NCBI GenBank assembly: GCA_903928965.1
Contig: CAIYSZ010000031.1
Location: 1 to 64,000, forward strand
DNA: 64,000 nt
Direction of reading: 5' to 3'
Source: an uncultured Pseudomonadota bacterium
Lineage (GTDB): Bacteria; Pseudomonadota; Gammaproteobacteria; Methylococcales; Methylomonadaceae
The position numbers and the translations under genes are program-made. This document shows, piece by piece, positions 55,596 to 61,929 of this stretch. The notes under the pieces were generated by a model. It was not told the origin of the DNA. It searched no databases and worked only from the letters and a program-made list of their open reading frames with translations. The stretch's first letter is position 1. Each line of letters opens with the position of its first letter.

Positions 55596-55969
55596 GGGGG
55601 CGACCTGGCTTCGACGTGGGTAGCAAAACTTCAGGTGCATGCCGAGGACAGTACACCTCGTAAATCCTACTGAAACAAGTATTCGCAAACGACGAAAACT
55701 ACTCAGTGGCCTTAGCAGCTTAAAACCTGCACCACTTCTCTGACTATGTGTGCTTATGCGTGTAGGCTCTTCGGGGCAATCAGGGATCATCTACATAAGA
55801 TCGCGCCAAGGCTTCGTTCGTAGCTGGAAGCGTTAAATCCAATCGAAATCGCTGTTGAATCTCTTGGCCCGTCGGGCAGTCAACGGTTAAACCAAAAGCA
55901 CGGGATAAGCATGTAGAGCTTGCGGCGGAGTGCTTGCGGACGCGGGTTCGATTCCCGCCGCCTCCACCA
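55596..55969 (+). ncRNA. ssrA: tmRNA
   Basis: 5' ggggGCG...3' CGCctccACCA acceptor pairing; T arm gcgggttcgattcccgc; tag ORF gcaaacgacgaaaactactcagtggccttagcagcttaa = ANDENYSVALAA*. Confidence 0.97.
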
Positions 55970-57215
55970 AGAATGTCGAAGAAAAACAGCCACTTACGAG
56001 TGGCTGTTCCTTTTTTGGCACATCGTTGGCACATTTCTTAAAATTTGACTGTTGCTTTACTTCGATTACCGAACTTGGTTCGGCGGCTTTTCGATTCAAA
56101 ACAAACTCAAGTTTGGAAAGTTCGCGGCCTTTGTCTGCTTCCCTTATCCATCTAGCATAAGTATTCAAAAACATCTGTACGCTGTGTCCAAGTTGGTTTG
56201 CCGCCCAAGCCGGGTTGACACCACTCATCAACATTAGAGTAGCAAAAGTGTGCCTCGTTTGATAGCAGGCGCGATGCCGCATCCCTAAAGCTTTTAATAC
56301 CGGCGTCCAAACACGGCGCAAAGGTCTATCGTCAATAAATGGCTCGTTTGTATTTGGATTAAGGAAAATCAACTGCGTCGCAGTTTGTGATTGTTGTCGT
56401 GCCAAGGCCGCGAAAGCACGACTGTTCAACTCGACTTCGCGTTCAACATATGTTTTTGTGTGCTCATTGATTTCCTGCCGAACCTTGGCTCTGTGAATAT
56501 GAGCTATTCGACGCCGAAAATCTATATCTTCCCAACGGAGTTCGATTTGCTCGGATGTTCGGAGACCAGTGAAAAAAGCAAATTCAAAATAGTTGTTTAT
56601 CGAAGGTGGATAATGTTCGCCAATATAAGCCAGTACCAATTCTACTTCCTCCAATGTTAAAGGATCTGGCTTCTTCTTTTGGTGTTTTACATAAACTATT
56701 CGCGCTGCCGGGTTTGAGGGGATCAAGTCGTCTTCATAAGCAGCTTCAAAGATGCGCCTAAGTGGAATAATCGAATTGTTTCTGGTCTTACCAGTCTTAA
56801 ATTTTATGGAGCCTATCATAGCCATTAATTCCGTATAAGTAATACCGTTCATGGAACGATTAGCTAGTTTTGGTAGCCAATGGAAATTTAATGTTTTGCG
56901 ATAACCTTCAATAGTTGATTTTGCAAGGTGTGCTTGGCCGGTCAACCATAAATCCGACATTGCCCCGAATGTCAACGATTCTGAGATTTGAGTTTTTGTA
57001 ACCTTAATCGAATCCGGAAAATAGATGGCATAGTCAAAAAGTCCATGCCGGATTTTTTCACATATTTCTGCGCGTAACTTGGTCGCTGCTCGTTGGTTTG
57101 CATCGGATGGTGACAAATTGAGCGATTCGAAGCATCGTTCTCCATTATATTTGAACCAAATTCGTAACTTGCCGCCATGTACTTGTACACCGGTCAGTTT
57201 TTTCCGCTGAGACAT
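55887..57215 (-). CDS. int: Tyrosine integrase of an ssrA-integrated island
   Basis: EFAFFTGLRTSEQIELRWEDID; RHRACYQTRHTFATLMLMSGVNPAWAANQLGHSVQMFLNTYARWI. The ORF C-terminus runs antisense into tmRNA. Confidence 0.93.
   Translation of the reverse strand: MSQRKKLTGVQVHGGKLRIWFKYNGERCFESLNLSPSDANQRAATKLRAEICEKIRHGLFDYAIYFPDSIKVTKTQISESLTFGAMSDLWLTGQAHLAKSTIEGYRKTLNFHWLPKLANRSMNGITYTELMAMIGSIKFKTGKTRNNSIIPLRRIFEAAYEDDLIPSNPAARIVYVKHQKKKPDPLTLEEVELVLAYIGEHYPPSINNYFEFAFFTGLRTSEQIELRWEDIDFRRRIAHIHRAKVRQEINEHTKTYVEREVELNSRAFAALARQQSQTATQLIFLNPNTNEPFIDDRPLRRVWTPVLKALGMRHRACYQTRHTFATLMLMSGVNPAWAANQLGHSVQMFLNTYARWIREADKGRELSKLEFVLNRKAAEPSSVIEVKQQSNFKKCANDVPKKEQPLVSGCFSSTFLVEAAGIEPASASTPPQALHAYPVLLV
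55986..56016 (+). terminator. Terminator downstream of ssrA
   Basis: acagccacttacgagtggctgttcctttttt. Confidence 0.85.
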
Positions 57216-57511
57216 TTATTGATCTCCATTAGATTGAAAATAATGCTTGATTTTTTTGAGTCTGGTCGCTCATGTCGGTAATGTAAGCCTTCACGCCAAG
57301 TACCTCTGGATATACGATTTCGTATCGCACTCCGACTTAGCCCGCTGATTTCTGAAAGGCGATCAATATAGACCCAATCAAGAGATGATACAGATTCTGT
57401 ATTTTTTGCAATAGCATTCGTTCTGATACTTTCAAGCAGGTTTTTTGCAGCATTTAGTTGAATTAGTGCTGCTTGATATTGTGCTTCGGCAAATACAATT
57501 AGGTCACTCAT
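57194..57511 (-). CDS. Excisionase-like small HTH protein
   Basis: WVYIDRLSEISGLSRSAIRNRISRGTWREGLHYRHERPDSKKSSIIFNL (xis/AlpA-like), overlapping the integrase start. Confidence 0.7.
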   Translation of the reverse strand: MSDLIVFAEAQYQAALIQLNAAKNLLESIRTNAIAKNTESVSSLDWVYIDRLSEISGLSRSAIRNRISRGTWREGLHYRHERPDSKKSSIIFNLMEINKCLSGKN

Positions 57512-57521
57512 GTTTTTTTAG

Positions 57522-59438
57522 GTCGCGGTAGAGATGGCTGTTACCAGCCACCCCCCGCACAGATCCGTACGAGCGGAATTACCGCATACGGCTCCTGCCA
57601 AGAGTATTGGCCTGAAATCGCTCTTCCGGGTGCGGATGCAGCACTTTAAGTGGAGGCAGAAAGCTATCGGCTAGCTTACCAAAACGGCTCCATGGCATAC
57701 GGCTTCGCTGGCTCCTTCGCAATAATGCATGTCTCCACGATCTTCTGACTTCTGCAAGGAAGCCCTTAAGTCGTATGAGATTCCCTGGCACGGCATAATA
57801 ATTCAAGTAGCCCCTGACAACACTGGCAAGCCACTTTCCAATTACAGGAATTGGTTCGTGTCGCCTCCGATGCAATTCCGTACGAATTGCACTTAATGTG
57901 GCCCTCATTCTTTTCTTGATTGTCAGCCTTAACAGTTTAAATTCACCTTTCCGGTTTTTACTGCATATATGTGTAAAACCAAGAAAGTCAAAGGTCTCGG
58001 GATTGCTTTGACCTCTTTCCAAGCACTGTTTTTCTGCAAATCGTCCAAATCGAATAAGGCGTGTTTTGTCTGGATGAAGTTCCAATTTAAATTTTGCCAT
58101 TCTCTCCTTCAGGTAGTGTAGGAAAGCTTTGGCTTCATTTTCGTACTGAAACCCCCATACACCATCATCCGCATACCTAACAAATATCACATCCCCTGCA
58201 AGGTATTTGTTTCTCCAATTATGCACCCATAAATCCAGTACATAGTGCAGATAGATGTTGGCAAGCAAAGGCGAAATAACAGACCCTTGAGGTGTCCCCT
58301 TGGTTGACGTCATTTTAACACCCTCGCTATCAATGGCACCTGCCATTAGCCACTTTCTTATTAGCCTTATCATACGTTTGTCGGCAATACGATGTTCCAG
58401 AAAACGTATCATCCATTCATGGTCAATCTCATCGAAGAATGCCCTAATGTCTGCGTCCAGTATCCAGTTTATTTTCTTGCCGAAAATGCCTTCAGCCAAT
58501 GCGTCTAGCGCGTCGTGCTGACTTCTTCCTTGCCTGAATCCGTAGGAAAAACCCATAAAATCCGATTCATAAATACAGTTCAGAACTGTTGCAGTTGCCT
58601 GCTGTACCACTTTATCTTCAACGGATGCGATTCCGAGCGGCCTTTGTTTACCATCGGCTTTTGGTATATACACTCGTTTTGATGCGCTGGCGCGATAGCG
58701 CCCTGACTGTATTTCTTTATGCAGTTCTACGAGCTTTCCTTTCCCTATCAATGCTTCATATTCACGCCATGTGACTTTGTCAATTCCAGGGGCTGCGTTC
58801 TTTTTGAGTTCATAAAAACTCTCCCAGAGCAATTCCGGTGTAATATGATGCATCAGTGCATTAAATCGGCATTGTTTATCCCTTCTTGCAATTTCACGCA
58901 CACCGGCTAATCCGCGGGACGCTCTTTTATCACAACGCTGTGTTTGTGGAGCGGTGAGTTCACCAGTGTTCCTCTTGGCTATATCCCTTCCCTCCGTTGC
59001 TTCCGCAGTCATTTTCATTTCATTGTTCAGCAATTTCATAGGTACTATGGATATATCCGACTTCTCATTGACGTAAATGGATGGATTACGGTTTTACCTT
59101 CCCATCCCTGTCCACCGGCAGATCATGGTGGACATCAACGAGACCTCGCTGCTTCCGTATAGTAAATTTCCCAGCATGCACAGGGTCTACGACCGCGTGG
59201 GATCAGGGACATCGCTTGCGATAACGTTTTGCCCTGTATTGCCTTCCGCTTCGCTTAACAACGTCGGCATCCCAGAGTTCTGATTTCGCGGCTCAATGGC
59301 TGGCCTACTGTTTCCCCTGTCAACGCTTCGACAAATCCCTCGCGAAATTTGCCGCATGACTCGGGGTTAGGATGGTTCGCTAGACCTTTCCTATGCTGAA
59401 CTTTCATCAGCTATCTACTATCGGCTTTGCAGCCGCAC
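57522..59438 (-). mobile_element. Group II intron (complete)
   Basis: 5' end GTGCGGCTGCAAAGCCGATAG (minus strand at 59438); domain V-like gagccgtatgcggtaattccgctcgtacggatc; 3' end ...ctctaccgcgac at 57522. Confidence 0.88.
57579..59039 (-). CDS. ltrA: Group II intron reverse transcriptase/maturase
   Basis: RT motifs incl. VRYADDGVWGF, TKGTPQGSVISPLLANIYLHYVLD; maturase domain; no HNH endonuclease apparent. Confidence 0.95.
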   Translation of the reverse strand: MKLLNNEMKMTAEATEGRDIAKRNTGELTAPQTQRCDKRASRGLAGVREIARRDKQCRFNALMHHITPELLWESFYELKKNAAPGIDKVTWREYEALIGKGKLVELHKEIQSGRYRASASKRVYIPKADGKQRPLGIASVEDKVVQQATATVLNCIYESDFMGFSYGFRQGRSQHDALDALAEGIFGKKINWILDADIRAFFDEIDHEWMIRFLEHRIADKRMIRLIRKWLMAGAIDSEGVKMTSTKGTPQGSVISPLLANIYLHYVLDLWVHNWRNKYLAGDVIFVRYADDGVWGFQYENEAKAFLHYLKERMAKFKLELHPDKTRLIRFGRFAEKQCLERGQSNPETFDFLGFTHICSKNRKGEFKLLRLTIKKRMRATLSAIRTELHRRRHEPIPVIGKWLASVVRGYLNYYAVPGNLIRLKGFLAEVRRSWRHALLRRSQRSRMPWSRFGKLADSFLPPLKVLHPHPEERFQANTLGRSRMR

Positions 59439-59518
59439 TAAGCGTCCAACGCTCCCACCTACCCAACCGCCCCTAAAAAGTCCATCCTCTGCATTTTGTT
59501 AAATCATGAGGAAGCAGC

Positions 59519-59821
59519 ATGTCGCGATTACAATTCTGGGAAAGCCACATTGAAGCTTGGCAACACAGCGGTTTATCGCAAACCGCTTACTGCCGGGAGC
59601 AAGGTATTAACTATCATTCCTTTACGGTGCGTTTAAGCCAGTATCGCAAAAAGCGCTTGCCGGGTTTGCCGGCGTTGATTCCGGTTCAGGTGCGGCCAAA
59701 TACTCCGCCATCCGAGCCGGTGGGCAACATTCGCTTAACGCATGGCGCGTCTTTACACATTGACTTGCCGTCGAACACCTCGGCGGCCTGGCTGGCGGAG
59801 TTGTTAACATGCCTGGGCTAA
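59519..59821 (+). CDS. tnpA: IS66 accessory protein TnpA
   Basis: FWESHIEAWQHSGLSQTAYCREQGINYHSFTVRLSQYRK. Confidence 0.9.
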   Translation: MSRLQFWESHIEAWQHSGLSQTAYCREQGINYHSFTVRLSQYRKKRLPGLPALIPVQVRPNTPPSEPVGNIRLTHGASLHIDLPSNTSAAWLAELLTCLG

Positions 59822-60159
59822 TCGCCGCGCCGTCCGACATCTGGTTGGCGGTGGCGCCGATGGACATGCGGCGCGGGATCGATGGCTTGTCGTCATTTGT
59901 GCAGCATGCGCTCGGTCATCCACCCTGCGCGGGTTCTGCGTTTGTGTTCCGCAACCGGGCGGGCAACCGGTTGAAGTTGTTGCTGTGGGATGGCAACGGC
60001 GTCTGGCTGTGCCAACGCCGCTTGCACCGGGGCGGGTTTGTCTGGCCCAAAACTCATGACGCGTGTTGTTCTGTGAGTCAGGCGCAATGGGAATGGCTGG
60101 TGTCCGGGGTGGATTGGCAACGCTTATCGGCTGTGCCGAAGGCCGATTGGCGGGTCTGA
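59809..60159 (+). CDS. tnpB: IS66 accessory protein TnpB (Orf2)
   Basis: IWLAVAPMDMRRGIDGLSSFVQHALGHPPCAGSAFVFRNRAGNRLKLLLWDGNGVWLCQRRLHRGGFVWP. Confidence 0.95.
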   Translation: MPGLIAAPSDIWLAVAPMDMRRGIDGLSSFVQHALGHPPCAGSAFVFRNRAGNRLKLLLWDGNGVWLCQRRLHRGGFVWPKTHDACCSVSQAQWEWLVSGVDWQRLSAVPKADWRV

Positions 60160-60278
60160 TGTCAAGGTGGTTATCGAGGCCCGCTCAGGGTTATCAATCT
60201 TGAAAAATTGATTGATTTTAGTCATAAAATGTCTATATTATAATGACTTAAGCGGTGTTTTCGGGTATAATAAACCCC

Positions 60279-61908
60279 ATGAAAAACCTCTCTCATCTGG
60301 ACACTTTCGATCCCGCGACCGCCTCACAGGCGGAATTAGCCGCCGTCATTTTGGCGTTGCAAGAGCGGGTGCGTCAAGACAGCGTCCTGCTCAGGGAGCG
60401 TGAGGTCAAGATCGATAAACTGATCTTTGAACTGGCCTATTACAAGCGCTTGCGCTTTGCTTCTAAAAGCGAGGCGCTGCCCGGTCAGCTTGAGCTGTTT
60501 GAGGAGACGCTGGCGACTGACGTGGCGGCCATTGAGTCGGAGCTCGAACAGCTTCAGGTTGAAGCCGGCCCCGCCGCTAAACCCAAACGCCCGCGCGCGG
60601 GCCGGCAGGTCTTCCCGCCGCATCTGACGCGTATTGAGCATCGTCATGAACCGGCTTCTTGCGCGTGCGATCAATGCGGCCGGGAGATGGTCAACATCGG
60701 CGAGGACGTGGCCGAGCAACTGGATGTGGAGCCGGCCAAGTTCTTTGTGCACCGCCACATTCGCCCTCAATACGCTTGCCGGGCCTGCGAGACCGTCAAA
60801 GCGGAACCTGTGCCGCCCGCCATCATGGAGGGCGGCATGGCGGCGGTGGGTTTGCTGACTTGGATCATGGTCAGTAAGTACCTGGATCATTTGCCGCTGT
60901 ACCGCTTGACGCAAATCGCCGCCCGCGATCAGGTCATTCTGTCCCGCTCCACCTTGGCGGAGTGGGTAGGTCGCACTGGCGTGGCCCTGCAACCTTTGGC
61001 GGAGCGCCTGAGGTGGCATTTGCTGCAAGGCGATACCTTGCACGCCGACGAGACGCCGGTGGCGCAGCAGGACCCGGGCTCCGGTAAAACCAAGAAAGCT
61101 TATCTCTGGGCCTACCGCAGCAACGATCTGGCGGAGGGACCCGGAAAATCGGGCGCACAAGCCGCCGCGCATCCTGGTCTTTGACTATCAACCGGGGCGC
61201 GGCGGCGAGCATGCGCGTCAATTCCTAGGCGCCTGGAAGGGGCATTTGATGGTGGACGACTATGGCGGCTATAAGGCACTGTTCGTCCCCGACCGCAACG
61301 GCTTGGTCTGTATCGAGCTGGCCTGCCTTGCGCATGCGCGCCGTAAATTCCACGAGCTCTTTCAAGCCAATCAAAGCCCCATGGCCGCGGAAGCCTTGCG
61401 CCGCATGGCCGGGCTGTATGCCATTGAGGCGGAAGCCGAAGCCCAGGCGTTGGATGTCCATGCGCGTCGCGGCTTGAGAGCGGAAAAAAGTCTGCCGCGG
61501 CTCAATGCGTTGCACGATTGGCTGTTGAAAACCCGTACGCTAACCGCCGACAACAGCGCCGCCGCCAGGGCGCTGAACTATACCCTCAAACGGTGGCCGG
61601 CCCTGTGCCGATATGCGCATACGGGGCGCCTACCCATTGACAACAACCCGGTGGAAAACGGCATACGCCCTATCGCCCTGGGTAAGAAAAATTGGCTGTT
61701 CACGGGCTCGGAACGCGCCGGGAAAAGAGCCGCCGCCATTCAAAGCTTGTTGGCCACCGCCAAGCTTAATGGCCTGGACCCTAGCGCATGGCTCAGGGAT
61801 ACCTTGGAAAAACTGCCCACCTGGCCCAATAGCCGGATTGATGAGTTAATGCCCTTCTCGCCTGAGCAGATTGAGGGTATTAAAACACGGAAAATGTCTT
61901 CGGGGTAG
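60279..61908 (+). pseudogene. tnpC: IS66 transposase TnpC, frameshifted
   Basis: ORFs 60255-61184 and 61246-61908 are halves of one TnpC (…LHADETPVAQQDPGSGKTKKAYLWAYRS | FDYQPGRGGEHARQFLGAWKGHLMVDDYGGY…); reading frame changes at about 61135-61165. Confidence 0.9.
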
Positions 61909-61929
61909 GTGGGACGGTTGGACGCTTAC

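Follow-up and report, generated by a model that had tools for sequence, protein, structure and literature searches.

An IS66 element interrupted by a group II intron

The window, a 64,000-nt contig stretch from an uncultured bacterium of the Methylomonadaceae, harbours an IS66 element whose left end is split by a group II intron lying on the minus strand (Table 1). We identified the element as IS66 by its tnpA, tnpB and tnpC genes and its GTAAGCG ends. The tnpC gene is frameshifted, with the parts matching the N- and C-terminal regions (NF033517/PF03050) in different frames. Near its start (1295-1480), the window holds a further IS66 tnpC fragment, which shares 81% amino acid identity with the C-terminal part.

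The IS66/intron insertion lies upstream of a DUF1233 excisionase gene (57194-57511), about 10 bp from the start codon. This gene comes after an integrase gene (55887-57215) that overlaps the 3' end of a tmRNA gene (55596-55969). The region 55596-57511 is likely a tmRNA-integrated island; a search of the window for a repeat of the tmRNA 3' end found none.

Table 1. Features of the intron, its target and the IS66 element, in window coordinates
Feature	Position	Strand	Evidence
Group II intron, GTGCGGCTGC...CTACCGCGAC	57522..59438	-	Sequence, alignment of relatives, Rfam D1 core
Domain I core, RF02005 group-II-D1D4-6	59183..59404	-	cmscan 188.7 bits (gathering 49)
RT/maturase, 486 aa, intact	57579..59039	-	TIGR04416, RVT_1
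Domain V hairpin	57562..57594	-	Position; folded jointly with domain VI, z=-4.8
Domain VI, presumed branch-point A unpaired ~8 nt from the 3' end	57522..57561	-	Fold
EBS1 TAAGCG, intron nt 182-187	59252..59257	-	Covariation with IBS1 across lineages
IBS1 CGCTTA, six nt closing the 5' exon (IS66 tip)	59439..59444	-	6/6 Watson-Crick pairs with EBS1
C opening the 3' exon, presumed IBS3 (final base of IS66)	57521	-	C in 45/47 sites; L198
IS66 element	59439..61929 (last left base at 57521, past the intron)	+	Pfam/NCBIfam TnpA, TnpB, TnpC; tips 22/24
IS66 right tip ...GGTTGGACGCTTAC, uninterrupted	61905..61929	+	Same end point in a second copy (G000, contig C102)
IS66 tnpA	59519..59821	+	NF047593
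IS66 tnpB	59809..60159	+	PF05717, NF033819
IS66 tnpC, frameshifted, two frames (60255-61184, 61246-61908)	60255..61908	+	NF033517/PF03050

Boundaries, ribozyme and maturase of the intron

The intron is 1,917 nt long. Its boundaries were set from the sequence and from alignment to relatives, and relatives aligned at both ends gave concordant positions. Base 57521 is the C of the 3' exon and base 59439 the final A of the 5' exon; the 5' exon reads ...GTTGGACGCTTA, and the 3' exon consists of C and then TAAAAAAACATG. A preliminary description of this DNA had placed the insertion between the last two bases of the IS66 tip, at 57521-59470. The placement holds, as judged from a second IS66 copy and from relatives (see below), and the coordinates had to be trimmed to 57522-59438.

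Mobile group II introns are recognised by a GUGYG start, domains V and VI and an AY end. The window intron starts with GTGCG (5' end GTGCGGCTGC) and ends with CGAC (3' end CTACCGCGAC). The match to the Rfam domain I core is highly significant (188.7 bits, E=5e-56), and the joint fold of domains V and VI is 4.8 standard deviations better than that of shuffled sequences (z=-4.8). The unpaired A in domain VI is presumably the branch point, as assigned from general knowledge of group II introns. The maturase ORF scored 356 bits against TIGR04416 (cut-off 300), extending 44 aa past the end of this match, and 137 bits against RVT_1, the only Pfam domain in the protein; an HNH endonuclease (D/En) domain was not found in the maturase. 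Ribozyme domains, an internal RT/maturase ORF and EBS1-IBS1 pairing (see below), all features of mobile group II introns, are present in the element.

The stop codon of the RT gene falls within domain V (57562-57594), the 5' strand of which encodes the conserved maturase C-terminus (SRMR and stop), with the catalytic AGC read as a Ser codon. In several relatives (L127-L132, L008, L003, L005, L006, L013, L122 and others) the RT frame is open nearly intron-wide, from intron nt 29-54 to about 1850. This extended frame is free of stops for about 430 nt across domains D1-D3, where the other frames have 4-10 stops each, and is annotated in relatives as ltrA of 598-607 aa. Judging from these reading frames, the relatives may translate the extension, which overlaps the ribozyme core. 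In the window intron, stop codons at nt 70, 250 and 343 shut the upstream extension of the RT frame.

The insertion point within the IS66 tip

The left tip of the IS66 element (minus-strand GTAGGTGGGAGCGTTGGACGCTTA) and its right tip (GTAGGTGGGACGGTTGGACGCTTA) are identical at 22 of 24 bases, in agreement with the terminal sequence described earlier as common to both ends. The right end (61905-61929) reads GTAGGTGGGACGGTTGGACGCTTAC. The genome contains another IS66 right end (L198, contig C102); its tip is identical, and its similarity to the window element stops exactly after GGACGCTTAC. The last base of IS66 is therefore C, and at the left end the intron separates it from the penultimate base (GGACGCTTA^C).

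IS66 elements duplicate 8 bp of their target. The window copy is without a matching duplication, its flanks (left TTTTTTTA, right ATTAAAAT) agreeing at 2 of 8 positions. Together with the broken tnpC, these flanking sequences indicate that the copy is probably old and that its left flank may have been rearranged. Loss of the target site duplication (TSD) in an old copy leaves its membership of the IS66 family standing.

Recurrence of the insertion at IS66 tips

With the RT and the intron as queries, relatives were gathered from named genomes, the family of the window, Pseudomonas genomes and plasmids. We mapped 78 distinct 5' exons and defined as core sites the 65 whose last six bases differ from CGCTTA at two positions at most; these sites are partly related by descent, and counts among them are not fully independent. 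IS66 transposase genes were present within 900 nt upstream at 38 of the 65 core sites (left ends, n = 21; right ends, n = 17). Most other core sites also end in the tip motif AGGTG..GGACGCTTA; a recognisable IS66 tip is absent from about seven (e.g. L163, L009, L015, L019). The first base of the 3' exon is C at 45 of 47 readable core sites. Among the sites mapped at both ends, 29/47 have IS66 genes to the 5' side and 2/47 to the 3' side (p=1.5e-9); in sister lineages, whose target sequences differ, they were found upstream at none of 13 sites. The IS66 subfamilies that carry insertions differ greatly in their tips, and both ends are used.

The order of events was read from TSDs by comparing the 8-base stretch preceding the far end of the IS with the one that follows the intron plus C. 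A perfect 8-bp duplication surrounds IS plus intron in L133, L122, L124, L126, L013, L012 and L014, and a 7/8 match does so in L008. As the duplication bridges IS plus intron in the seven perfect loci, IS66 inserted first and the intron later split off its last base. Both the recurrence at GGACGCTTA^C, to which the preliminary description had pointed, and its proposal of the IS66 terminal repeat as a recurrent retrohoming target are borne out by these data. According to the sequence comparison, IS66 tips are the landing site of the window intron's lineage in many Proteobacteria.

A chance match between an IS66 end and the short IBS1 (CGCTTA), with IS66 not special as a target, would be conceivable for a motif of just 6 nt and would accommodate the relatives that occupy CGCTTA outside any IS (L163, L009, L015, L019). 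We consider it very improbable in view of the IS66 genes upstream of 38/65 core sites, the tip motif at most of the others and the 0/13 association in sister lineages; moreover, EBS1 changes follow the tip variants CGGTTA and CGCATA. The same junction is seen at tens of sites in other genomes, so the window insertion is not a chance match, and this recurrence already largely refutes the idea.

Alternatively, a moving composite of IS66 and intron could have brought the intron to the locus, without homing to the tip, as several Pseudomonas putida records (L122, L011) with the same IS66 type and the same 45-nt 5' exon carry introns. This, too, is hardly probable, because independent insertions explain the differing tips of the IS66 subfamilies and the use of both ends, and because the tip in a composite is disconnected from its flank, making transposition by that end unlikely. 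We therefore retain homing to the IS66 tip as the preferred reading.

Target recognition by EBS1-IBS1 pairing

The EBS1-IBS1 pairing for which the preliminary description had suggested a prediction extends over all six positions in the window and is accompanied by covariation across lineages. EBS1 TAAGCG matches CGCTTA perfectly in 37 sites. Where the target is altered, EBS1 is often, not always, altered as well, giving the target/EBS1 combinations CGGTTA/TAACCG, CGCATA/TATGCG, TCCTTA/TAAGGA, ACGTTA/TAACGT and ATCTGT/ACAGAT. Pairing is seen at 90 of the 108 positions in 18 distinct combinations, compared with a mean of 69.6 and a maximum of 87 in 20,000 permutations of the EBS1/IBS1 pairing. 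A search for EBS2 by covariation across the relatives gave no convincing site.

Group IIC introns need a 5' hairpin and a short IBS1. An intron of this type inserting behind hairpins (terminators or attC-like structures), with the IS66 end merely supplying one, was considered since the left tip in the window can form AGCGT-TGG-ACGCT. Such a stem occurs in 2/65 core 5' exons, the same as in shuffled controls, and the IBS1 pairing comprises 6 bp, which makes this reading extremely improbable; IIC-like hairpin targeting is ruled out by the lack of a conserved hairpin in the 5' exons. IIC-attC introns resemble the IS66-tip lineage in homing to repeated sites of a recombination element, but both the 5' hairpin and the short IBS1 are absent at IS66-tip sites.

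In a sister lineage with EBS1 ACAGAT, three insertions (L137:3895, L137:5296, L148:4092) follow ...AAATAAATCTGT, which belongs to the repeat GGGGACAGATTTATTTT with several copies nearby. On this sequence pattern, the EBS1 of this lineage has apparently switched to another dispersed repeat. The sister introns L005:3287 and L006:3587 have EBS1 TAAGGAT and the target ATCCTTA^C, and are located downstream of a transposase-like gene and IS21-like istAB genes.

Orientation to the replication fork and proposed mobility

The orientation of 19 insertions was determined on 13 chromosomes, in which dnaA and, where possible, dif were located; the terminus was merely estimated in three of them. Seventeen of the 19 insertions (p=0.0007), and nine of the ten full copies (p=0.02), are co-directional with the replication fork. 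Insertions running with the fork place the intron RNA in the lagging-strand template, and the same preference has been reported for the endonuclease-less RmInt1 (PMC5894124). By its weakly positive GC skew on the plus strand of a draft contig, the window copy would be head-on to the fork and would belong to the minority.

With boundaries, recurrence, pairing covariation, TSDs of relatives and strand bias observed directly, the insertion is highly likely to have arisen by retrohoming of a mobile group II intron, one lacking an endonuclease, into the terminal inverted repeat at the left of IS66; the intron is presumably active at present. Its RNA would recognise the IS66 tip by pairing of EBS1 TAAGCG with CGCTTA, and the terminal C would very probably be paired as IBS3. 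EBS1 target and terminal C taken together, the whole essential target would fit inside IS66 and end at its last base. The intron RNA would then reverse-splice between the last two bases of IS66 and be copied into DNA by the intron's own RT. Given the missing endonuclease and the co-directional relatives, priming probably relies, like that of RmInt1, on nascent DNA of the lagging strand or on RNA primers. Since the IS66 ends are inverted repeats, each IS copy would offer one correctly oriented target.

The insertion spares the tnpA-tnpC reading frames. From its geometry, it would disconnect the IS66 end in the DNA, and with the tip detached from its flank, transposition via the occupied end should be blocked. 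Splicing mends RNA and not DNA, so that the intron should disable the end it occupies.

Relation to known introns

RmInt2 of Sinorhizobium targets both inverted repeats of ISRm17, a strategy already published (PMC5894124) and not mentioned in the preliminary description. RmInt2 resembles the IS66-tip lineage in being endonuclease-less, in using both inverted repeats of an IS and in having one lagging-strand target per copy; the corresponding figures for the IS66-tip lineage are 21 left and 17 right ends and 17/19 co-directional insertions. ISRm17 belongs to the ISNCY/ISDol1 family (PMC10194956), which rules it out as an IS66 element, whereas the host in the window is IS66. RmInt2 is a class D intron with 72% nucleotide identity to RmInt1, whereas the IEP of the window intron has 29% amino acid identity to RmInt1 (L175).

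RmInt1 was identified in L171/L175 by its published pairing of EBS1 UUUCGUC with IBS1 GAUGAGA (PMC4238363); L168/L170, from which this EBS1 is absent, are ruled out as RmInt1. Like the window intron, RmInt1 in ISRm2011-2 (IS630 family, S. meliloti) is endonuclease-less, mobile, IS-targeting and biased to the lagging strand, but it differs in IS family and target and has a distant IEP. The RmInt1-type sequences are set apart in the tree by a long, fully supported branch. With 29% identity to RmInt1 and a separate branch, membership of the window intron in class D is ruled out, and the IS66 lineage probably arrived at tip-homing independently; RmInt2/ISRm17 and IS66-tip homing look convergent.

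Bacterial class E introns have IIB-like RNA and no En domain, and one has been reported in S. meliloti (PMC3552965, PMC7923331). The window intron shares both properties, and its IEP is 52-53% identical to those of S. meliloti L168/L170. Assignment of the lineage to class E is our guess.

No description of an intron lineage targeting IS66 tips was found in the open-access literature searched. The IS66-tip lineage is well supported as a variant of the tip-homing strategy known from RmInt2/ISRm17.

Significance of IS66-tip targeting

An entire clade of endonuclease-less group II introns, spanning alpha-, beta- and gammaproteobacteria, is probably a dedicated parasite of IS66 tips that tracks them by compensatory EBS1 changes, acquired tip-homing separately from class D RmInt2 and inactivates the end it occupies; the EBS1 of sister lineages has probably switched to other dispersed repeats. 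One mobile element would thus be specialised on the ends of another. A target in a terminal repeat is multicopy, spreading, gene-free and always correctly oriented; the intron would spare all genes of the host element and gain a target that copies itself, and targeting the tip is likely to silence the transposon that hosts the intron. For the retargeting of endonuclease-less introns, the natural EBS1/IBS1 pairs already provide data. The same solution in two distant intron classes, RmInt2/ISRm17 and the IS66-tip lineage, points to a general rule.
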